Shown piece after piece: positions 23,272 to 37,849 of a stretch of 64,000 nt of DNA. Source of the stretch: an uncultured Sulfitobacter sp. (GTDB lineage Bacteria; Pseudomonadota; Alphaproteobacteria; Rhodobacterales; Rhodobacteraceae). Below the pieces are notes generated by a model, which saw only the letters and a program-made list of their open reading frames with translations, ran no database searches and was not told the DNA's origin. The translations under genes and the position numbers were made by a program. The stretch spans positions 310,001-374,000 of the forward strand of contig NZ_CANMFS010000003.1 of NCBI RefSeq assembly GCF_947497275.1, given 5' to 3'. How positions within the stretch are numbered: the stretch's first letter is position 1; the number at the start of each line of letters is the position of its first letter.

Positions 23272-23949
23272 TCAGACTCCCAGATACTGCGTCGTCACAT
23301 CCGTCATCGCCCCGCGCCAGACCGTCTCTCCCCGCTCAAGGACCACTGCGCGGTCCGCGACCTGTCGCAGTTCGCGCAGGGATTTATCCACGAGCAAAAT
23401 CGCCATGCCGGTCTGCGCCTTCAACATGGCGATTGACGCCCAGATCTCCTGACGCACGATGGGGGCGAGCCCTTCGGTCGCCTCGTCGAGGATCAGCAGG
23501 CGCGGATTGGTCATCAATGCGCGCCCGATGGCCAGCATCTGTTGCTCTCCACCCGAAAGCGAAGCGGCGGACTGGCTTTTTCGTTCTTCAAGCCGCGGGA
23601 ACAGTGTGGCGACCTTGGCCAGATCCCATTCGCCCGCGCGCGCAGCGGCGGTGAGATTTTCCAGCACCGTCAGGTTGGTGAAACAGCGCCGCCCTTCGGG
23701 CACCAGTCCGATGCCCATCCGGGCCGCGCGGTGCGCGGGCACGCCGGCCAGATCGTGATCTGCGAAATGGATGGTGCCGGCGGTAGCGGGCAGCAGCTTG
23801 CAGATCGTCTTGACGGTTGTCGACTTGCCCATGCCGTTGCGTCCCATCAGCGCCAGCACCTCGCCCTCTGCCACCTCCAGCGAGACACCGAAAAGCGCCT
23901 GCGATGCGCCGTAGGACGCGGTGACGTTTTCGAGGCGCAACAGGCTCAT
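23272..23949 (-). CDS. livF: ABC transporter ATP-binding protein, LivF type
   Basis: 225 aa with Walker A GRNGMGKST (about 37-45), signature SLSGGEQQML, Walker B RLLILDEATEGLAP. The TVKTICKLLP and RMGIGLVPEGRRCF segments are typical of LivF. It overlaps livG by ATGA. It energises import of amino acids or small carboxylic acids with LivG, LivH and LivM. Confidence 0.93.
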   Translation of the reverse strand: MSLLRLENVTASYGASQALFGVSLEVAEGEVLALMGRNGMGKSTTVKTICKLLPATAGTIHFADHDLAGVPAHRAARMGIGLVPEGRRCFTNLTVLENLTAAARAGEWDLAKVATLFPRLEERKSQSAASLSGGEQQMLAIGRALMTNPRLLILDEATEGLAPIVRQEIWASIAMLKAQTGMAILLVDKSLRELRQVADRAVVLERGETVWRGAMTDVTTQYLGV

Positions 23950-24695
23950 GCGTCCTCTCCCAAATAGGCGTTGCGGACGGTTTTATCGGCGCGGATCTCG
24001 TCGACGGTGCCGGTGGCGATGATCCTTCCGTAGACAAGCACGCTGATCCGGTCCGCGAGCGCGAACACCGCGTCCATATCGTGTTCCACCAACAAGATGG
24101 GCGCCTCTGCCCGCAGACCGTCCAGGAACGTCGTCATTGTCTCGGAACCCGAGGTGCCGAGGCCCGCCATCGGCTCGTCCATCACGAAGACGCGCGGATT
24201 CAACGTCAAAGCGACGGCGACTTCAAGCTGCCGCCGCTGCCCGTGCGACAACTCCGACGTGCGCATCCGCGCCTTGTCACGCAGCCCGACCCGCTCCAGC
24301 GCCGTTTCCGCGCGGTCGCGCAAATCGCTGTGACCCAGTGCGCTCTGCCAAAAGCGGAAGGGATTGCCGCCGGCGCCCAACGCCCCCAGCAGCGCGTTTT
24401 GCAAAACCGTATCCTCCATCGCCAGTTCAGAAATCTGGAACGTCCGACCCAACCCACGCCGGGCGCGCTGCGCCGTGCTGAGCGCGGTGATGTCACGACC
24501 ATCCAGCAGAACCTGCCCCGCATCCGGACGCAGCCCCCCGGCGATCTGCTTGATCAGAGTGGATTTGCCCGCCCCGTTCGGACCGATCAGCGCGTGGATC
24601 TCGCCCGCCCGCAGATCGAGGGTGATGTCTTTGCTCGCCTGAAGCGCGCCGAACGACAGGCACAATCCGCGCGTTTGCAATACAGGGTCAGTCAT
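23946..24695 (-). CDS. livG: ABC transporter ATP-binding protein, LivG type
   Basis: 249 aa from ATG 24695 (four codons of upstream frame are also open). Walker A GPNGAGKST near residue 38, signature SELSHGQRRQLE, Walker B PRVFVMDEPMAGL. The LivG hallmark LGRTFQISELA is present. It overlaps livM by 8 bp. Confidence 0.93.
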   Translation of the reverse strand: MTDPVLQTRGLCLSFGALQASKDITLDLRAGEIHALIGPNGAGKSTLIKQIAGGLRPDAGQVLLDGRDITALSTAQRARRGLGRTFQISELAMEDTVLQNALLGALGAGGNPFRFWQSALGHSDLRDRAETALERVGLRDKARMRTSELSHGQRRQLEVAVALTLNPRVFVMDEPMAGLGTSGSETMTTFLDGLRAEAPILLVEHDMDAVFALADRISVLVYGRIIATGTVDEIRADKTVRNAYLGEDA

Positions 24696-25671
24696 GCGCC
24701 GCCTCACGACCCGTCAGCGTTCCGATCACGCCACCGCGTGCGAAAAGCACGATCAGCAGCAACAGCGCGCCAAGGTAGATGTGCCAATAGTCCGACAGGC
24801 CGCCCAGAAGATGTTCGAGAATGATAAAAAGGATCGCACCGACCACCGGACCGAACAGCCGCGCCACGCCGCCGATGATGACGAAGACCATGATTTCGCC
24901 GCTGGTTTGCCAGCTGAACATCACCGGGCTGACAAAACGGTTCAGGTCAGCGAACAGCGCACCGGCAAGGCCGGTGATCATGCCCGACAGCGTAAAGGCG
25001 ACCAATTGCAAGCGGTAGGGCGAAATTCCGACAGTCTCGACCCGCAGTGGCGTTTGTCGCGCGGCACCCAACGCCAGACCAAAAGGCGACTTTGCAAGCC
25101 GCGCGAGCAGAAAAAGTACCGCGCAGAGCACCCCCAGCACAATGCCGTAGAACTGGATCGGATCGAGTGTATTCAGCCCCGGAAAACTGTTGCGGACGTA
25201 GATCGACAAGCCGTCCTCGCCACCGTAGGCAGGCCAGCTGATCGAGAAGAAATACAGCATCTGACCAAAAGCAAGCGTGATCATGATGAAGTACACGCCC
25301 GACGTGCGCAGGCTGAGCGCGCCGATGCCCAACGCCGCAAGGCCCGAAGCGAGGATTGCAGTAAGCCAGATGACCGGCATGGATTTGCTGCCCTCGAAAA
25401 CGAACGGCTGGGTGAAGATCGGATCATACGCCTGCGCATGGCTGGCGAGGATTCCCATCGCATATCCGCCGATCCCGAAAAACGCCGCATGGCCGAAACT
25501 GACCAGCCCGCCGATGCCGAGGGCGAGGTTGAGGCCTACACCGGCAAGTGCCAGGATCGCGGCCTTGGTCGCCAGGGTAATCATAAAGGGCTCGTCCGCC
25601 ATCCACGCCCAGATCGGAAACAGGACCAGCCCGGCCACGACGACCGCGTTCAATATCCGTTCGGTGGTCAT
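24688..25671 (-). CDS. livM: ABC transporter permease, LivM type
   Basis: 327 aa polytopic permease with ALAGVGLNLALGIGGLVSFG, SLRTSGVYFIMITLAFGQML and the EAA-like loop GALFADLNRFVSP. It overlaps livH by ATGA. It forms the membrane channel together with LivH. Confidence 0.93.
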   Translation of the reverse strand: MTTERILNAVVVAGLVLFPIWAWMADEPFMITLATKAAILALAGVGLNLALGIGGLVSFGHAAFFGIGGYAMGILASHAQAYDPIFTQPFVFEGSKSMPVIWLTAILASGLAALGIGALSLRTSGVYFIMITLAFGQMLYFFSISWPAYGGEDGLSIYVRNSFPGLNTLDPIQFYGIVLGVLCAVLFLLARLAKSPFGLALGAARQTPLRVETVGISPYRLQLVAFTLSGMITGLAGALFADLNRFVSPVMFSWQTSGEIMVFVIIGGVARLFGPVVGAILFIILEHLLGGLSDYWHIYLGALLLLIVLFARGGVIGTLTGREAAHD

Positions 25672-26588
25672 GCGCGGGCTCCGAACAATCCGGTGGGTTT
25701 CCAGATCAACACCACAGCCATCAGGATGTAAATCAACATCGACGCAAGCGCCGATCCCGCCGAGGTCGCTGTCGCGGGATCTGTGAACAGCTTGAAGAGG
25801 TGCGGCAGCAGAACGCCCCCCAACGTATCGGTCAAACCGACCAGAAGCGCGCCGATCAGCGCCCCCTTTATCGAGCCGATGCCGCCGATCACGATTACCA
25901 CGAAAGCGAGGATCAGCACCGGTTCTCCCATGCCGACCTGCACCGACTGGATCGCGCCCACCAAAGCGCCCGCCAGCCCGGCCAGCCCCGCGCCCAGCGC
26001 GAACACGATGGTGTAGAGCTTTGAGATGTCGACACCGAGCGCCGCGATCATCTCGCGGTCATTCTCGCCCGCGCGGATCTGGATGCCAAGGCGGGTCTTG
26101 CTGATGAGCACGAACAGACCGGCGGCGATGGCAAGGCCGATGCCGATGAGCGTCAACCGATAGAGCGGATACTGAATTCCGCCGGGCAAGGTCACAGGTC
26201 CCGAAAGGTAGTCGGGAATGTTGAGATACAGCGGAAAGGAGCCGAATATCCAACGGGTGCCTTCGGAAAAGATCAGGATCAGCGCGAAGGTCGCCAGCAC
26301 CTGATCGAGGTGATCGCGCGCATAAAGGCGACGGATCACAAGCACCTCGATCAGCGCACCCGCCGCCGCCGCCGCGGCAAGCGCCGAAACGAGCGCCAGC
26401 ATGAAAGACCCCGTTGCCCCCGCCACCGCCGCCGCCGCGAAAGCGCCGACCATGAACAGGGAGCCATGCGCGAGATTGATGAGCCCCATCACTCCGAACA
26501 CGAGGGTCAGGCCAGCGGCCATGACGAACAGCATTACGCCAAGTTGCACGCCGTTGAGGATCTGTTCTGCCAACAGGATCGGAGACAT
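25668..26588 (-). CDS. livH: ABC transporter permease, LivH type
   Basis: 306 aa with the LivH start pattern NGVQLGVMLFVMAAGLTLVF and GLINLAHGSLFMVGAF, and the later ALGAGLAGLAGALVGAI loop. About eight transmembrane helices. It lies about 50 bp after the binding-protein gene. Confidence 0.93.
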   Translation of the reverse strand: MSPILLAEQILNGVQLGVMLFVMAAGLTLVFGVMGLINLAHGSLFMVGAFAAAAVAGATGSFMLALVSALAAAAAAGALIEVLVIRRLYARDHLDQVLATFALILIFSEGTRWIFGSFPLYLNIPDYLSGPVTLPGGIQYPLYRLTLIGIGLAIAAGLFVLISKTRLGIQIRAGENDREMIAALGVDISKLYTIVFALGAGLAGLAGALVGAIQSVQVGMGEPVLILAFVVIVIGGIGSIKGALIGALLVGLTDTLGGVLLPHLFKLFTDPATATSAGSALASMLIYILMAVVLIWKPTGLFGARA

Positions 26589-26639: not shown

Positions 26640-27791
26640 TTATTGCATCTGGCACTCGGCGGCGTGGGCGTCGCCGTGATCCTCAAGCGCCGTGCCGATG
26701 ATCTTGTTGGTATATACGTCACCTTCCCTGATCACTTCACGCACATAGATATCCTGTATCGGGTGGTGGTTGGTGTTGAATTTGAATTCCCCCCGCGTAC
26801 TGGCAAAATCCGCCTCTTCCAGCGCCGCCTGAAAGGCGTCCGCGTCCGAGATGTCGGCCTTGTCCATCGCGCTCAGCAACAGGTTCGCGGTATCGAACCC
26901 CTGACTGGCGTACAGCGACGGCAAACGTCCGTACTCGGCCTGAAAGCTCTCGACGAAGGCCGTGTTTGTCGGATTGTCGAGGTCCTTGCTCCACTGCGAG
27001 GTGTTCACAACGCCCAGCGCCGCATCGCCCACCGCTTGCAGGATGCCCTGGTCAAAGCTGAACGCGGGACCGACGACGGGGATGTCAACGCCGCTGTCGG
27101 CGTATTGTTTAAGGAACGAAATACCCATGCCGCCGGGCAGAAAGAAGAACACGCTATCGGCGCCCGATGCACGGATCTGCGCAATTTCCGAAGCATAGTC
27201 GGTCTGTCCCAAGGCGGTAAGTAACTCCCCCGATAGTTCACCCTCGTACTGACTCTTGTACCCGGTCAACGCGTCCTGTCCGGCCGGATAGTTCGGTGCG
27301 AGGATGAACGAATTCTTGTAGCCAGCCGAATTGGCATAGGCCCCCGCCGCCTCGTGCAGGTTGTCGTTCTGCCACGCGACATTAAAGTACAACGGGCTGC
27401 AACCGCGCCCCGCCAAAGCGGACGGACCGGCGTTGGGCGAGAGATAGAATTTGCCCTGCGCCACAGCACCCGGAATGACGGCCATCGCCAGATTGGACCA
27501 GATGATGCCGGTCAGGACATCCACCTTTTCGGACTGGATCATCTTGTCGGCAAGCTGCACCGCGATATCTGGCTTGCGCTGGTCATCCTCGATGATGACT
27601 TCAAGTTTGTCGTTGCCCGCCTGCTTGGCGGCCAGCATAAAGCCGTCGCGCACGTCTATGCCAAGGCCCGCACCACCACCAGACAGCGTGGTGATCATAC
27701 CGACCTTGACCTTGCCCGCATGGGTATCGGCAAAGGCACCTCCGGCCAGACCTGCGATGCAGGCGGCAAGTGCGAGTGTTCTGGGTGTCAT
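26640..27791 (-). CDS. Periplasmic substrate-binding protein of a LIV-type transporter
   Basis: 383 aa from ATG 27791, chosen because AAGGAG lies 8 nt upstream and a signal peptide follows (MTPRTLALAACIAGLAGGAF). Type I periplasmic binding fold (LivK/Peripla_BP_6): VKVGMITTLSGGGAGLGIDV, DDQRKPDIAVQLADKMI. The open frame continues upstream into the remains of a CoA ligase, which is not part of this protein. The substrate may be an aromatic or other carboxylic acid rather than leucine, judging from the flanking pseudogenes (inference). Confidence 0.9.
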   Translation of the reverse strand: MTPRTLALAACIAGLAGGAFADTHAGKVKVGMITTLSGGGAGLGIDVRDGFMLAAKQAGNDKLEVIIEDDQRKPDIAVQLADKMIQSEKVDVLTGIIWSNLAMAVIPGAVAQGKFYLSPNAGPSALAGRGCSPLYFNVAWQNDNLHEAAGAYANSAGYKNSFILAPNYPAGQDALTGYKSQYEGELSGELLTALGQTDYASEIAQIRASGADSVFFFLPGGMGISFLKQYADSGVDIPVVGPAFSFDQGILQAVGDAALGVVNTSQWSKDLDNPTNTAFVESFQAEYGRLPSLYASQGFDTANLLLSAMDKADISDADAFQAALEEADFASTRGEFKFNTNHHPIQDIYVREVIREGDVYTNKIIGTALEDHGDAHAAECQMQ

Positions 27792-27836
27792 GTGAAGTCT
27801 CCTTGTTGAGGTTGGAACGCGCCTCTGACGGGTGCT

Positions 27837-27978
27837 TTGGGGTTTAGTGTCGCGCTTGAGCAGAAAGCGCAGGATCTTGCCGGTCCGAGTTATCGGCAGT
27901 TCGTCGCAAAACACAATGCTGCGCGGATATTTATACGGTGATGATCGGTTTGATGTAGTCCAACAGCGCCACGTCATC
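27837..27978 (-). pseudogene. C-terminal fragment of a benzoate-CoA ligase-like enzyme
   Basis: One frame reads DDVALLDYIKPIIT and then shifts into PYKYPRSIVFCDELPITRTG plus KILRFLLKRD, ending just before the binding-protein gene. The motif PYKYPRxIVFxDELPxTxTGKIxRF is the extreme C-terminus of benzoate/aminobenzoate-CoA ligases, including the catalytic Lys of the TGK loop. A frameshift separates the two pieces, and nothing of the N-terminal 450 residues remains. Confidence 0.75.
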
Positions 27979-28009
27979 GCGCCACCGATATTGAGTCAGT
28001 CGGGGTAGT

Positions 28010-28174
28010 CAATCGGTTGTAAAACCCCCAGCGATCGCCCTCGTCGGCGTTCATCGCGCACCCGGTACAAAGCAATTCCGCCGAGCACCACTGCCCGATG
28101 ATGCGCAACAGGATCGCGCAAGCCCCAATGTCGCAGCCCGCTAGCCTGACGCGCGCGAACAGGAACGCGCAGTT
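28010..28174 (-). pseudogene. Internal fragment of an enoyl-CoA hydratase-like gene
   Basis: A 55-codon stretch without start reads FARVRLAGCDIGACAILLRI, then IGQWCSAELLCTG and MNADEGDRWGFYNRL. This resembles the crotonase-family segment [20 protein letters not shown] followed by AEELxYTGRxMxAEEGExWGFxNRL. Both ends are missing. It is fused out of frame to the MarR fragment upstream and runs into the CoA ligase fragment downstream. Confidence 0.7.
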
Positions 28175-28271
28175 CGTTCTTGATCACCCGGGTGGCCTTG
28201 AGCAGCCACAATCGCAGGCGGTGCTCCGACGCAGATTCGGTTACGTTGAAGTAAAGCGACACGTTGTTCAT
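28167..28271 (-). pseudogene. N-terminal fragment of a MarR-type regulator
   Basis: ATG 28271 overlaps the stop of the SDR fragment (ATGA). About 35 codons give ESASEHRLRLWLLKATRVIK, similar to the start of MarR regulators from aromatic-CoA clusters (RLRLWLRLLKATRVIExELR). The helix-turn-helix is missing. The similarity is short, so this is the least certain of the fragments. Confidence 0.45.
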
Positions 28272-28513
28272 ATCTCGCCCCCCGTTAGGTTAAGCGTGCG
28301 GCCCTTCACCGACCGGGCAGCGGGCGCGCAAAGATAGAGCGCTGCAGCCGCGACCTCGGCCACCTTGGTGAAAAGCTTTTGCGGATTACCCTTGGACAAG
28401 GATTTTGCCGCGGCTTCGTAGCTCACTTGTCCATGTTTTTGGCGATGGAGGTCTCGAGCATCGGGGTGTGGATGAAAACCCGAACAGATGGCGTCGACAG
28501 TGATGCCTGTGCC
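28268..28513 (-). pseudogene. C-terminal fragment of an SDR gene with frameshifts
   Basis: Three frames in series give GTGITVDAICSGF, then HTPMLETSIAKNMDK, then SYEAAAKSLSKGNPQKLFTK followed by VAEVAAAALYLCAPAARSV and NLTGGEI-stop. Together they match the last 80 or so residues of a short-chain dehydrogenase (PGFVxTPM...EVAxxxLYLCxPxARSVNGxxLNLTGG). At least two frameshifts are present, and the Rossmann half is gone. Confidence 0.75.
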
Positions 28514-28515
28514 TT

Positions 28516-28587
28516 GGGTTGGCGCAGCTTGGACGAGATGGCAACGTAAAGACCGGCTGGACCGCCATCGAGGCAGGCAAGGCGCAT
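28516..28587 (-). pseudogene. N-terminal fragment of a flavin monooxygenase (salicylyl/anthraniloyl-CoA type)
   Basis: ATG 28587 opens MRLACLDGGPAGLYVAISSK, matching the FAD-binding start MRIACLGGGPAGLYFAISMK of bifunctional salicylyl/anthraniloyl-CoA monooxygenases. The second glycine of GxGxxG is replaced by D (LDGGPAG), and similarity ends after about 24 codons, where the SDR fragment begins. Confidence 0.6.
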
Positions 28588-28692
28588 TTCCCTCTCCGAG
28601 TTCGCTGCTGAAACAAGGCTAGGCGCCTGCTGGGTTCGTTTCATGGTTTAGTATTTTGGGTTTGAAGGATGCAGGAAGGTCCGGGCCGGCAG

Positions 28693-30369
28693 TTACCGTT
28701 GAAATGTCACTGCACCGTCACAGATCGTCAAGACTGCGTACGCCTGCGTGATGTCATCGGGCGCGAGCCGGAACAGATCCATGTTCAATACGGCCACATC
28801 CGCCATCATCCCTGCCTTCAGCATGCCTTTGCAGTCCTCGTTGAACTCGACCCATGCGTTGTCGCGGGTGTAGCTCGCGAGCGTATCGGTCAGGGTTTGC
28901 GTCTGGTCGGGCCACGCCGACCCAAGATCGAGCGGCGCGATCGCGGCGCGGATGTTGGGCATCACATCGACTGGAATCACCGGCCAATCGGTCGAAAAAA
29001 TAACGCGCGCACCGGTGTCGCGGATCGTCTGCCACGCGTAGGCGCCCGCGATCTGGTCATCGTGCAGATACTGGCCGACTGCCCCGGGCGGAAAGATATG
29101 GCCGATGGGCGCATGGCCGGGCTGAATTGACGCGACGATGTCAAACTCGGCAAGGCGCGGTATGTCGTCGGGGTGCATCACCTCGAGATGCTCGATCCGG
29201 TGGCGGCTGTCGCGCGCGCCGTTAGCCTGTCGCGCAGCGGCGAAGGCGTCGATGGTGCGGCGGACGCCCGCGTCCCCGATCGCGTGCACCGCGATCTGAA
29301 ACCCGAGACGGTCCGCCTCGATGCAGGCGGCCTCGAAATGCTCTTGGGTGAACACCTCATCGCCCGCGTTGCCACCCGCGCCCAGCACGCCGGGATAGGG
29401 GCGCAGCATCAACGCGGTGCCGCTTTCGATAACACCGTCGAAGAACATCTTGACGTGGCCGCAGCGCAGCTTGTCGCTATGGAACCTGTTGCGCATTTGC
29501 GGCGCTTCGGCGGCGATGCGGCTGATCGGATCGGTTCCCTTCATGTGGAACGGCACGAGACAGCGGCACGGCAGACGGCCTTCCGCGTCAAGCTCGGACA
29601 ACAGCTCAAGCTGATAGGTATTGCCGTCCATCAGGTGCAGACCGGTGATCCCCTGCGCGGCACAATGCGCGAGGCCCTTCGCGATTACATCCTTATCCAT
29701 TTCGCGCTGCGCGGGCGTGGCGGGCGGCTGTGGATCCTTGCCGGTGGTCAGACCCAGCATCTCTCGGCCCGCGTGGTCGGTCATCGCAAGGACCGCGCCG
29801 TAAGCGCCCGGCTCAAGTAATTCGCCGGCGGCATACCCATCGTTGCCGATCACGACTTGCGATCCCGCATCGACTCGCGCGCCGCGAAATAACCCCGCAG
29901 CCTTCAAAGCAGCGGTATTCGCCCAGACGGTGTGATGATCGGGCGCAAACAGGGCCAGCGGTCGGTCGGGCAGGATCTGGTCCAGATCATGCCTTGTCGG
30001 CGTCGCGCCGGTGCCCAGAATGCCGTAATCTGCCATCACACAGAACACCAGATCGCTGTCCGGGTATGTTTCTGCATAGGGCAGGATGACTTCGGCCATC
30101 GTCTCCAGACCTTCAACCCCATACAGGCTCGGCAGGGTCAACTCCACCGATCCGGTAAACAGGTGCACGTGGCTGTCGATCAATCCGGGCAACACCGTGC
30201 CGCCATTCGCATCATATACCTTGGTGTCCGGACCGGACAGCGCAAGGATCGCCGTGTTATCACCGACTGCCGTGATCAGGCCTGCGGTAATTGCCAGCGC
30301 CTGCGCCGTTGGTTGCTCGGGATCAAAGGTCATCAGCGCACCATTGTGCACGATCAGATCTGCGGTCAT
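28693..30369 (-). CDS. Amidohydrolase family protein (YtcJ-like)
   Basis: 558 aa from ATG 30369. The metal-binding HxH is in GLIDSHVHLFTG near residue 60; later landmarks are AVHAIGDAGVRRTIDAF, HRIEHLEVM and FSTDWPV (the conserved Asp). This is the amidohydrolase_3/YtcJ group, which includes N-substituted formamide deformylases; no signal peptide. It lies about 60 bp downstream of the polyamine-type binding protein on the same strand and probably belongs to that operon, perhaps hydrolysing an imported amide. Confidence 0.85.
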   Translation of the reverse strand: MTADLIVHNGALMTFDPEQPTAQALAITAGLITAVGDNTAILALSGPDTKVYDANGGTVLPGLIDSHVHLFTGSVELTLPSLYGVEGLETMAEVILPYAETYPDSDLVFCVMADYGILGTGATPTRHDLDQILPDRPLALFAPDHHTVWANTAALKAAGLFRGARVDAGSQVVIGNDGYAAGELLEPGAYGAVLAMTDHAGREMLGLTTGKDPQPPATPAQREMDKDVIAKGLAHCAAQGITGLHLMDGNTYQLELLSELDAEGRLPCRCLVPFHMKGTDPISRIAAEAPQMRNRFHSDKLRCGHVKMFFDGVIESGTALMLRPYPGVLGAGGNAGDEVFTQEHFEAACIEADRLGFQIAVHAIGDAGVRRTIDAFAAARQANGARDSRHRIEHLEVMHPDDIPRLAEFDIVASIQPGHAPIGHIFPPGAVGQYLHDDQIAGAYAWQTIRDTGARVIFSTDWPVIPVDVMPNIRAAIAPLDLGSAWPDQTQTLTDTLASYTRDNAWVEFNEDCKGMLKAGMMADVAVLNMDLFRLAPDDITQAYAVLTICDGAVTFQR

Positions 30370-30429
30370 CCGACGCTCCCGATTGCTGAGGGGATCCATG
30401 GCCCTGCCGAAAGCGGGCCATGGATACGG

Positions 30430-34738: not shown

Positions 34739-37700
34739 TTATATCGGCGCGATGAAAGCACGTCTGGCGGTAACAAAGGCGGGGTGCAGTTCCGATCCGG
34801 GCAGGTGCAGCGCGCAGAGGGTTTTTTCCAGCCATGCCTGAGCTTCCGGCGTTCCCGTTTCGACGCTCATCAGTCGGGCGCGGGACGCAGCGATCAAGGC
34901 GGCCCAGGCACGGCTTCCCGTGCGTTCTGCCCGTGCCTGTGCACGATCCAGCAGTGCATTGGCTGGCCCCCGCGCTTCGGGATCGGTCAAAATCGTCACC
35001 TCCGCCTGCAGCCTCAGCACTTCGGGTGCATAAATGAGATCGCGCCCGACCTGGTTCTCGCTAAGTGCTTCGTTTATCGCGTCCTGCGCATCCTGCGGCC
35101 GTCCGGTTTGCGCAAAACAACGGGCCAAAGTTGCCATGTGATAGGCCTGCCCCATATGCAGCCCGATCGCCCGTGTCTGATCGGTTGCAGCTTCTAGTGC
35201 CGCAGTCCCACTCTCCGGGTCGGCGTTCCGCACAGCTTCGTGTGCCAGCCATATCTGTCCGGCAACGATCCAGAAGGGCTGTCCGATCTCGGCGGCATAT
35301 TCTGTCGCCTCTGCGATAACGGCACGGTAATCTTCGTCCGAATGGGCGTATGTGAGCGGGGCAGCGCCATAGATGCGAATATACGGGCGCAGGAAAGGCA
35401 GATTCAGAAAGTCCTCATGCTCCCGCGCGGCGGCACGCGCCGCTTGCCAATTCGGCAAATCGCCGGCGATATACCTGGTGTGAATGCGGAACAGATGGGA
35501 AATCTCGAGGCTGTCCATCGAATAGGTGACGGCGTGCAAACGGTGGAGTTCGGGCACATACAGCCTTCGGGTCTCTGCGGTTGCCGCCTCCTGCGCCGCC
35601 AGATCGCCGGTGTTCCAGAGGACAAGCGATCTTGCCGCGGCGGCCAGCACTTCGAGCGACGGCTCGACCGTCGCGATCTCGTCCATGCGGCGCGACAAAC
35701 GGATCGCACGATCAATTTCGCCGATCACCATGTAATGCGCCCAAATACCCCAGGCGATCTGGAATTCGGTCTCACCGTTGCGGTCCCCGGACAGGCACAG
35801 TTCGAGCGCACGGCCATAGGCCTCGGCGACGCTGGCGTCGGAGAATCCCCGGTGCTGCACCAGCGCCAACCCCAGCGAGAACCTCATCATCATTTCAAGC
35901 CGGTCCCGTAATCCATCGGCTGTCGGCACCTGGTCGAGATTTTCTTCGGCGCGTGCCAACAGGCGCACGGCTTCGGCGATCTCCCCTCTGGCCAGCGCCA
36001 ATTGCGCCGCCTCTATCAGCTTAGGCATTGCCTCGCTGATGCGCCCCGCCCCCTTGAGGTGATAGGCAGCGGTGATCGGCGAGACGGACAATACGCCGGG
36101 TGCTACTGTTTCATAGGCTTCCAAGGCGGATTTGTGCAGTTTGTGCATATGTGCCGCCATCAACGTGTCGATCACGGCCTCCCTTATCAGCGCATGGTCA
36201 AAACTGACCGCGCCATGCTCGCCCGGACGGAGCAGACCCCGCGCGATGAGCCGCCCGATCTGTTCGTAGACCTGCGCTTCGCTCGAATTGAGCATCGCCG
36301 CAAGCACGTCGACACGTACTGCGGACCCTAGCACCGCTGCCGCCTCCACCAGGTCCCGAGTGTCTCCGAGATTGGTAAACCGCTCCAGCAGCGCCTCGAT
36401 CATCGTGGTGGGAATTGTATCTCCGGGGCGGCTGTCTGGCCGTTCGAGCACTGCCCGCGTGATATGCTCCACATAAAGCGGGACACCGTCGGCCCTTTCG
36501 ACGATCTGGGAACGCGTCACACGGTCGATCACCCCGTCGGTGTCCAGCGCCGAGATGACCCCGTCCATTTCCGACACATCCATCTGCCCAAGCTTGATCA
36601 GCCGCGCATCTGTCAGCGGGAACGCAGCCCCCTCCGGGCGCCGCGTCGCAAGGATCAGCAGACTCCTGCCCCGAAGGACGTCCGGCAGGCCGCCGATCAG
36701 TTGCAGACTGTCCGCGTCGAGCCAGTGGGCGTCATCCAACAACAGGGTCGCCGGGGTGGACGGCACACGCTCCTTCAGGACCTGCAAGAGCGCGTTCTTG
36801 ATCATCGGGGCGCGCAACTGTGGCGATACCGGTTCGTCGTTCAGGTTGCACAGAACCACGAGACCTGCCAGCGCGTCGGGGGGCGCCCATGCCGTCAATG
36901 CGGCCTTCTGGCTGTCTCGCGGTGCGTTGACCGACGCATCGGCGAGCGACAGAATGAAGGGCCTGAAAGCAGCAAAGCTCTTCTCGCGGCGATGGCGCTG
37001 CGCGCGAATGATAAACGCGTTGCCCTCCCCTACGGAACTTTCAAGAAAGCTTTCGGCGAGCGAGGTTTTCCCGAAACCGCCCTGCCCCTCGATCACGGCG
37101 CTCAGGACCTGTCCCTTCTGCACCTCGGTCCAGACGTCGCGCAATGCGTTGCGCATCGGGTCACGTCCGACAAAGGCGGTGACACGCTCTCCGCTGATCG
37201 CGGCATCGACCAGCCAGACCCGCACAGGATCGGCAAAACCGCGCAGATTTCGCGACCCCAATGGCGTGAGCGCAAATTGCGTCGGATCGAGCCTTTGCCC
37301 GGTTTCAGACGAGACGGCGATCCGGCCCGTGCCGGCCTCCGATTGCAGCCTTGCCGCAAGGTTCACCGTTCCGCCGATCGCCATCGTCTCCGCGGCTGCG
37401 GCACCTGTGTTGGTGTCGCCGACGACCATCCAACCTGTCGCGGTCCCGGCACTTGCCGAAATTTCGCCGTTCGGAACGATCAGGTCGCGGTTGCGCTCGA
37501 TGATGCGCAAGCCCGCGCTCACTGCCGCGTTCGCGCTGTTCTTCACCGGTTCGGGATAACCGAAATAGGCGAGCATCCCATCGCCCATGTATTTGGCGAC
37601 GTATCCGCCGTGATCGGTCACAGCATCGTTACAGATCTCCTGATAGCGCGAGATGAGATCGAACATCATTTCATCCCCAAGCTGCCGGGTAAGCTCTGTC

Positions 37701-37849
37701 GAACCGGCAAGGTCGCAGAACAGGACCGTCATGTAATGCGAATGGATGGACCGCTTTTCCTCCACCCGCGCCCCGCAGGCGCTGCAGAACTTGGCGGCCT
37801 TGGCGAGCGGGGCCGCGCAATGCAGACAGGTCGCGCACATTTCGGTCAT
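34739..37849 (-). CDS. Class III adenylate cyclase-AAA ATPase-TPR regulatory protein
   Basis: 1036 aa multidomain protein. It starts with a Cys-rich zinc ribbon (C5, C8, C22, C25). The class III cyclase domain (about 36-180) has both metal-binding Asp (D46 in FCDLAGS, D90 in KYMGDG), substrate Lys K86, and transition-state Asn163 and Arg167 (VNLAARL), so it looks catalytically complete. A STAND-like ATPase follows with Walker A GQGGFGKTS (255-263) and Walker B TLLLDDAHWLD. The C-terminal half is helical repeats of the TPR type. Its start overlaps the stop of the oxidoreductase gene (ATGA), so the two are translated together. It may make cAMP in response to a ligand sensed by the repeats. Confidence 0.88.
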   Translation of the reverse strand: MTEMCATCLHCAAPLAKAAKFCSACGARVEEKRSIHSHYMTVLFCDLAGSTELTRQLGDEMMFDLISRYQEICNDAVTDHGGYVAKYMGDGMLAYFGYPEPVKNSANAAVSAGLRIIERNRDLIVPNGEISASAGTATGWMVVGDTNTGAAAAETMAIGGTVNLAARLQSEAGTGRIAVSSETGQRLDPTQFALTPLGSRNLRGFADPVRVWLVDAAISGERVTAFVGRDPMRNALRDVWTEVQKGQVLSAVIEGQGGFGKTSLAESFLESSVGEGNAFIIRAQRHRREKSFAAFRPFILSLADASVNAPRDSQKAALTAWAPPDALAGLVVLCNLNDEPVSPQLRAPMIKNALLQVLKERVPSTPATLLLDDAHWLDADSLQLIGGLPDVLRGRSLLILATRRPEGAAFPLTDARLIKLGQMDVSEMDGVISALDTDGVIDRVTRSQIVERADGVPLYVEHITRAVLERPDSRPGDTIPTTMIEALLERFTNLGDTRDLVEAAAVLGSAVRVDVLAAMLNSSEAQVYEQIGRLIARGLLRPGEHGAVSFDHALIREAVIDTLMAAHMHKLHKSALEAYETVAPGVLSVSPITAAYHLKGAGRISEAMPKLIEAAQLALARGEIAEAVRLLARAEENLDQVPTADGLRDRLEMMMRFSLGLALVQHRGFSDASVAEAYGRALELCLSGDRNGETEFQIAWGIWAHYMVIGEIDRAIRLSRRMDEIATVEPSLEVLAAAARSLVLWNTGDLAAQEAATAETRRLYVPELHRLHAVTYSMDSLEISHLFRIHTRYIAGDLPNWQAARAAAREHEDFLNLPFLRPYIRIYGAAPLTYAHSDEDYRAVIAEATEYAAEIGQPFWIVAGQIWLAHEAVRNADPESGTAALEAATDQTRAIGLHMGQAYHMATLARCFAQTGRPQDAQDAINEALSENQVGRDLIYAPEVLRLQAEVTILTDPEARGPANALLDRAQARAERTGSRAWAALIAASRARLMSVETGTPEAQAWLEKTLCALHLPGSELHPAFVTARRAFIAPI

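Follow-up and report, generated by a model that had tools for sequence, protein, structure and literature searches.

A stretch of 742 bp on the minus strand of the window (the whole 64,000-nucleotide stretch of DNA that was analysed) lies between an intact amidohydrolase gene and the five intact genes of a LIV-type transporter. It contains no intact gene and is composed of collinear pieces of five families, to which 736 of its 742 bases are assigned when counted from the piece coordinates (Table 1). Read 5′ to 3′ on this strand, the pieces follow the order monooxygenase, SDR, MarR regulator, enoyl-CoA hydratase, a nine-codon ligase piece and the ligase tail. The reading frames are broken by four large deletions, by frameshifts and by the loss of the ligase stop codon.

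Table 1. Features of the scar, its flanks and the retained transporter
Feature	Position	Strand	Evidence or extent	Best of 300 shuffles (bits)
Amidohydrolase, intact, far flank of the scar	28693..30399	minus	also flanks the intact cluster of G001	
Decayed copy of the cluster's upstream inverted repeat	28638..28666	minus	candidate operator/promoter	
Scar	28587-27846	minus	742 bp, collinear pieces of five families	
Monooxygenase-reductase (bifunctional salicylyl-CoA 5-hydroxylase/anthraniloyl-CoA-type), first 26 codons	28510..28587	minus	80.8% identity, 45.8 bits	26.2
SDR, C-terminal third	28268..28507	minus	residues 163-243 of the G001 SDR, 67.0 bits	26.9
MarR-type regulator, N-terminus	28167..28271	minus	32.0 bits, protein match begins at 28238	24.3
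Enoyl-CoA hydratase, internal, residues 136-198	27980..28168	minus	66.7% identity, 82.0 bits	22.3
CoA ligase, internal piece RDDVALL	27955..27981	minus	residues 194-202 of the G001 ligase, 18.1 bits	
Benzoate-type CoA ligase, last 35 codons	27846..27950	minus	74.3% identity, 55.5 bits	23.9
LIV-type solute-binding protein, intact	26640..27791	minus	Peripla_BP_6; dN/dS 0.040 vs G011	
LIV-type permease 1, intact	25668..26588	minus	Pfam; constraint vs G011	
LIV-type permease 2, intact	24688..25671	minus	Pfam; constraint vs G011	
LIV-type ATPase 1, intact	23946..24707	minus	Pfam; constraint vs G011	
LIV-type ATPase 2, intact	23272..23949	minus	Pfam; constraint vs G011	

As a control for chance similarity, the intact proteins of G001, a genome of the same genus, were compared by tblastn with the scar and with 300 dinucleotide-shuffled versions of it. 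The best match of each of the five families exceeds all 300 shuffles. The five fragments named by the first-pass annotation are therefore all present, on the strand and in the order it gave, and none of them is an intact ORF, as it had also stated. The binding protein (16.2 bits, shuffles 23.5), the permease (15.4, shuffles 26.6) and the amidohydrolase (20.8, shuffles 26.2) of G001 score within the shuffle range, and acyl-CoA dehydrogenase, the sixth gene of the intact cluster, left no trace in the scar (17.3 bits against a best shuffle of 25.4). The SDR piece contains two compensating frameshifts and the ligase tail a further one; these had been reported before and were seen again by eye. The central part of the SDR piece (approximately 28476-28426, FIHTPMLETSIAKNMDK) is, by eye, in a frame that differs from both ends. 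Taken alone, neither this part (22.7 bits) nor the nine-codon ligase piece rises above the shuffles; the ligase piece is weak on its own but is placed alike in four references by the DNA jump alignment described below. Over its first 33 bases (28271-28239), the MarR piece is assigned by DNA alignment only. The hydratase piece carries neither a stop codon nor a frameshift and is 82.6% identical to the DNA of locus L072 over 155 bp; further pieces also have DNA matches in several of these loci, in the same order.

Relatives preserve the cluster from which such pieces could be derived. When species genomes were scanned with the binding protein, at least 577 stretches were confirmed, and the best 80 were taken as loci. 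The first-pass annotation had proposed a comparison of synteny with related genomes, and the same gene order (monooxygenase, SDR, MarR regulator, hydratase, acyl-CoA dehydrogenase, ligase and binding protein) was found complete, on one strand and beside the same LIV transporter, in G001 and in 21 of the best 80 loci. The earlier claim of an ancestral operon of five genes must be amended, because the cluster comprises six catabolic or regulatory genes, with acyl-CoA dehydrogenase added. In G001 (locus L102), the intact cluster lies at the corresponding position, bounded by the same amidohydrolase on one side and the same LIV transporter on the other, and its far flank consists of the amidohydrolase and a polyamine-type binding protein, as in the window. 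From the monooxygenase start to the ligase end, this cluster spans 7,125 bp, compared with 742 bp in the window. The G001 monooxygenase passes the NCBIfam model NF006101 (bifunctional salicylyl-CoA 5-hydroxylase/oxidoreductase) with 1307.6 bits against a cut-off of 1078, and the best model of its ligase is TIGR02262 (benzoate-CoA ligase family), at 364.8 bits just under the cut-off of 375.25. G001 also carries a glucokinase gene (L102 6304-7362, minus) between the amidohydrolase and the cluster, on the opposite strand to the latter; the corresponding gap is too short for glucokinase in the window and in the related genome G011. No intact monooxygenase occurs elsewhere in the window genome (G000), where the 26-codon piece is the sole match to the N-terminal half of the protein (E ≤ 1e-3). 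In another genome, G018 (L104), the ligase and the transporter are intact, the rest of the cluster is absent from the locus and a 67%-identical monooxygenase lies on another contig, which suggests replacement or relocation.

Jump alignment of the scar to six intact references was used to size the deletions. The first, from monooxygenase to SDR, measures 2,697-2,727 bp in five references; the second, from MarR regulator to hydratase, 772-787 bp in five references; and the deletion internal to the ligase, 897-906 bp in four. The deletion from hydratase to mid-ligase, which includes the whole acyl-CoA dehydrogenase gene, is approximately 2.0 kb in protein coordinates on G001. Thus, four large deletions of approximately 2.7, 0.78, 2.0 and 0.9 kb would explain the scar. 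Reference L048 gave discordant blocks throughout and was left out of these sizes, as were the alignment figures upstream of 28590 and at approximately 27850-27810, which vary by reference. In L102 the alignment misplaced the block 28010-27973, and the last two deletions measure 1543 and 1354 bp there. This DNA-only placement of the block, in the N-terminal region of the G001 ligase, was dropped, because the protein comparison continues the hydratase through it. Short direct repeats are plausible at two junctions, TGCGCG between MarR regulator and hydratase (L008) and GGCGCT within the ligase (L102), and are less clear at the other two; they were read by eye in 12 of the 26 references, which are diverged, with no control for chance agreement.

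G000 and G011 are sisters in rpoB trees of DNA (support 0.97) and protein (0.98), built from the 14 of 16 genomes that yielded rpoB. G001 is placed differently by the two trees, so it is not put forward here as the closest relative; the window's polyamine-type binding protein is 83.9% identical to that of G001 and 82.7% identical to that of G011. In G011 (L103 7927-8150), 222 bp separate the amidohydrolase stop codon from the binding-protein start and hold a broken, frameshifted ligase tail. Because this scar retains ligase codons that are gone from the window, and because no indel is common to both by eye, at least the final deletions in the two genomes were separate; a common first lesion is compatible with the same comparison. 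The genus set contains 62 genomes, of which 58 were searched for the binding protein and the monooxygenase and all 62 with the scar DNA. The binding protein (E ≤ 1e-100) occurs in 41 of the 58, and 44 of the 58 carry a monooxygenase that is full-length and at least 67% identical. Among the 41 genomes with the binding protein, the monooxygenase is absent only in G000 and G011, with G049 represented by pieces at contig ends. At E ≤ 1e-18, and setting aside the window's own match, the scar DNA matches G011 in the ligase tail and 31 other genomes in the hydratase region.

Similar remains occur beside the binding protein in two MAGs outside the genus. The first (L012 9423-9887) holds ligase-only remains corresponding to residues 57-121 and 493-535, and the second (L074 9169-9479) holds ligase-only remains of residues 436-536, which are broken and of which the first piece is 38% identical; both were scored without a shuffle control. 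No monooxygenase match at E ≤ 1e-120 was found in either genome. More generally, 59 of the best 80 loci are without a complete cluster, and 50 of these were searched for the monooxygenase. In 36 of the 50 genomes, which have the binding protein at a clusterless locus, there is no monooxygenase at E ≤ 1e-120, a count that leaves genome completeness unaccounted for and includes several loci that are short upstream of the binding protein. At seven of the 50 loci (six of the 36), no permease of more than 60% identity lies at the locus, so that only the binding protein is shown there; excluding them, the count is 30 of 43. This warns against inferring the pathway from the presence of this binding protein. 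Around the transporter of the clusterless loci L004 and L010, a comparison of nine ORFs gave no common neighbour.

We consider the stretch to be, almost certainly, what deletions have left of a six-gene operon, now dead, for the CoA-dependent degradation of aromatic compounds, which would have encoded the monooxygenase/reductase, the SDR, the MarR regulator, the enoyl-CoA hydratase, the acyl-CoA dehydrogenase and the CoA ligase. The first-pass annotation had explained it by serial internal deletions of one operon. The large collinear deletions are borne out, and neither inversion nor foreign sequence was seen; the one-at-a-time sequence is not, as the present comparison does not fix the order and number of the events. 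A single complex rearrangement that made all the junctions together would also leave every piece collinear and 736 of 742 bases assigned. We regard this explanation as unlikely, given that other genomes show differing extents of loss at the same boundary.

Far less probable still is that the residue has acquired a function, such as that of a leader or of an extension to the N-terminus of the binding protein. The ligase tail lies in frame within an ORF (26640-27977) that is open into the binding-protein gene. This frame is open in both G000 (451 codons) and G011 (448 codons); however, a 448-codon open frame is also present in G018, where it is out of frame with the intact ligase. In addition, the stretch gave no Rfam match and no sigma-70-type promoter-like site was found in it. 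An extended binding protein is unlikely, because all four genomes compared retain the AAGGAG motif ahead of the start at 27791. Automatic annotation may nonetheless mis-call this start and give the binding protein a false N-terminal extension.

The region upstream of the scar also bears a trace of the lost operon. Most intact clusters have an inverted repeat, TTYAAG-N14..16-CTTGAA around an A+T-rich core, upstream of the monooxygenase; it was seen at L102 7480-7572 and upstream in most of the 25 further intact clusters. Both half-sites are exact in 12 of 24 intact clusters, and nine of the 24 have one mismatch. The half-sites of the window have two mismatches, as many as those of the intact clusters L036 and L055 and fewer than those of L038 (three). 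When the core and the second half-site are scored in a leave-one-out comparison, the window site reaches 9.0, compared with 19.7-34.4 in all 26 intact clusters. Because this score is below every intact score, while only one of 2000 shuffles attains it, the site is both recognisable and damaged. The MarR protein of the cluster may bind this repeat, which we treat as a candidate operator.

Substitution rates add a rough date. The hydratase piece has a mean dN of 0.296 to 26 intact copies, for which the per-genome means are 0.139-0.197, and the ligase piece, at 0.267, is slightly above its intact range of 0.155-0.258. The other pieces are inside their intact ranges: monooxygenase 0.181 (0.063-0.197), SDR 0.381 (0.232-0.449) and MarR 0.136 (0.125-0.311; 11 codons). 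Set against a synonymous divergence of approximately 0.8-1.2 between the window genome and G011, the dN excess of the hydratase suggests that constraint was lost well after the split of G000 and G011, at about a quarter of the distance back in time, a rough estimate from one piece. The LIV transporter is intact in both genomes and under constraint, and its five genes have dN/dS values of 0.040, 0.040, 0.045, 0.099 and 0.083, which describe the whole time since that split and not solely the time after the pathway was lost.

These data also bear on whether the scar is an artefact of assembly, in which reads of an intact cluster were mis-joined or collapsed. In favour of this reading, the window is part of a 4.29-Mb draft genome of 57 contigs. 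However, the scar lies inside a 542-kb contig, no intact copy is present on any other contig, and the frameshifts, the lost stop codon, the dN excess of the hydratase and the decayed upstream repeat are not expected of a mis-join. Moreover, the sister genome G011 has its own, different scar. We therefore consider an artefact highly improbable, even more so than a gained role. Least credible of all is the independent arrival of the pieces as foreign fragments, in whose favour nothing was found, since the order, the strand and the flanks on both sides agree with those of the resident cluster in G001.

For the deletion scar, we envisage the following course. The pathway would have lost its use, after which deletions would have built up, perhaps between short direct repeats, until selection on the transporter halted them at the transporter start; the transporter would now serve other aromatic acids (for example, via the protocatechuate route) or another substrate. 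The nearest solved chain to the binding protein is PDB 4evq (E 2.4e-52). Together with 4evr, we take this structure to be a benzoate-type binding protein with benzoate-type ligands, and the window protein is likened to it by sequence only. The genome also retains genes for 4-hydroxybenzoate hydroxylase (PobA) and the protocatechuate dioxygenase beta chain (PcaH), both above cut-offs. The likeness to 4evq and these two genes make the uptake of other aromatic acids a plausible role for the transporter. Beyond this single genome, we lean towards the view that the group repeatedly sheds the aromatic module while retaining, for a separate function, the LIV transporter beside it. The start of the transporter gene would then act as a selective stop for deletions, so that the ligase 3′ end goes last, and G000, G011, L012 and L074 would each show a single recurring process at one moment; the true substrate of the transporter would not be, or not only be, the acid of the neighbouring cluster.

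The 2-aminobenzoyl-CoA (anthraniloyl-CoA) pathway of Azoarcus evansii combines a CoA ligase, a flavin monooxygenase/reductase and beta-oxidation-type steps (PMC4539516), and the intact relatives considered here carry matching gene families. Unlike that system, the window retains approximately 10% of the DNA and none of the six genes whole. The ancestral substrate may have been anthranilate, salicylate or another compound.

Comparison with relatives has revealed remnants of bacterial pseudogenes in intergenic DNA, and the decay of unused genes to such remnants is already well known (PMC3899985). The likeness is that the ancestral gene is still recognised via relatives. The present case differs in that an entire six-gene operon is reduced to 742 bp, nearly all of whose bases are assigned, and in that three other genomes bear separate scars at the same boundary between operon and transporter. 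The scar itself is a clear example of gene loss in bacteria, though an ordinary one, and no published account of it was found among the titles and abstracts of the literature searched. What is new is the different, shorter scar of G011 and the ligase-only scars in two further genomes at the same boundary. The interest of this case lies in the completeness of the record and in the repeated loss of a pathway beside a kept transporter. Because the genus contains, besides this compact fossil of an entire operon with almost every base assigned, an intact form and a further-eroded one, the series allows one to ask how catabolic modules vanish and why an uptake system outlives its pathway.

Elsewhere in the window, positions 34739-37849 hold an ORF of 1036 aa, which by eye resembles an adenylate-cyclase-type domain with an ATPase and repeats after it.
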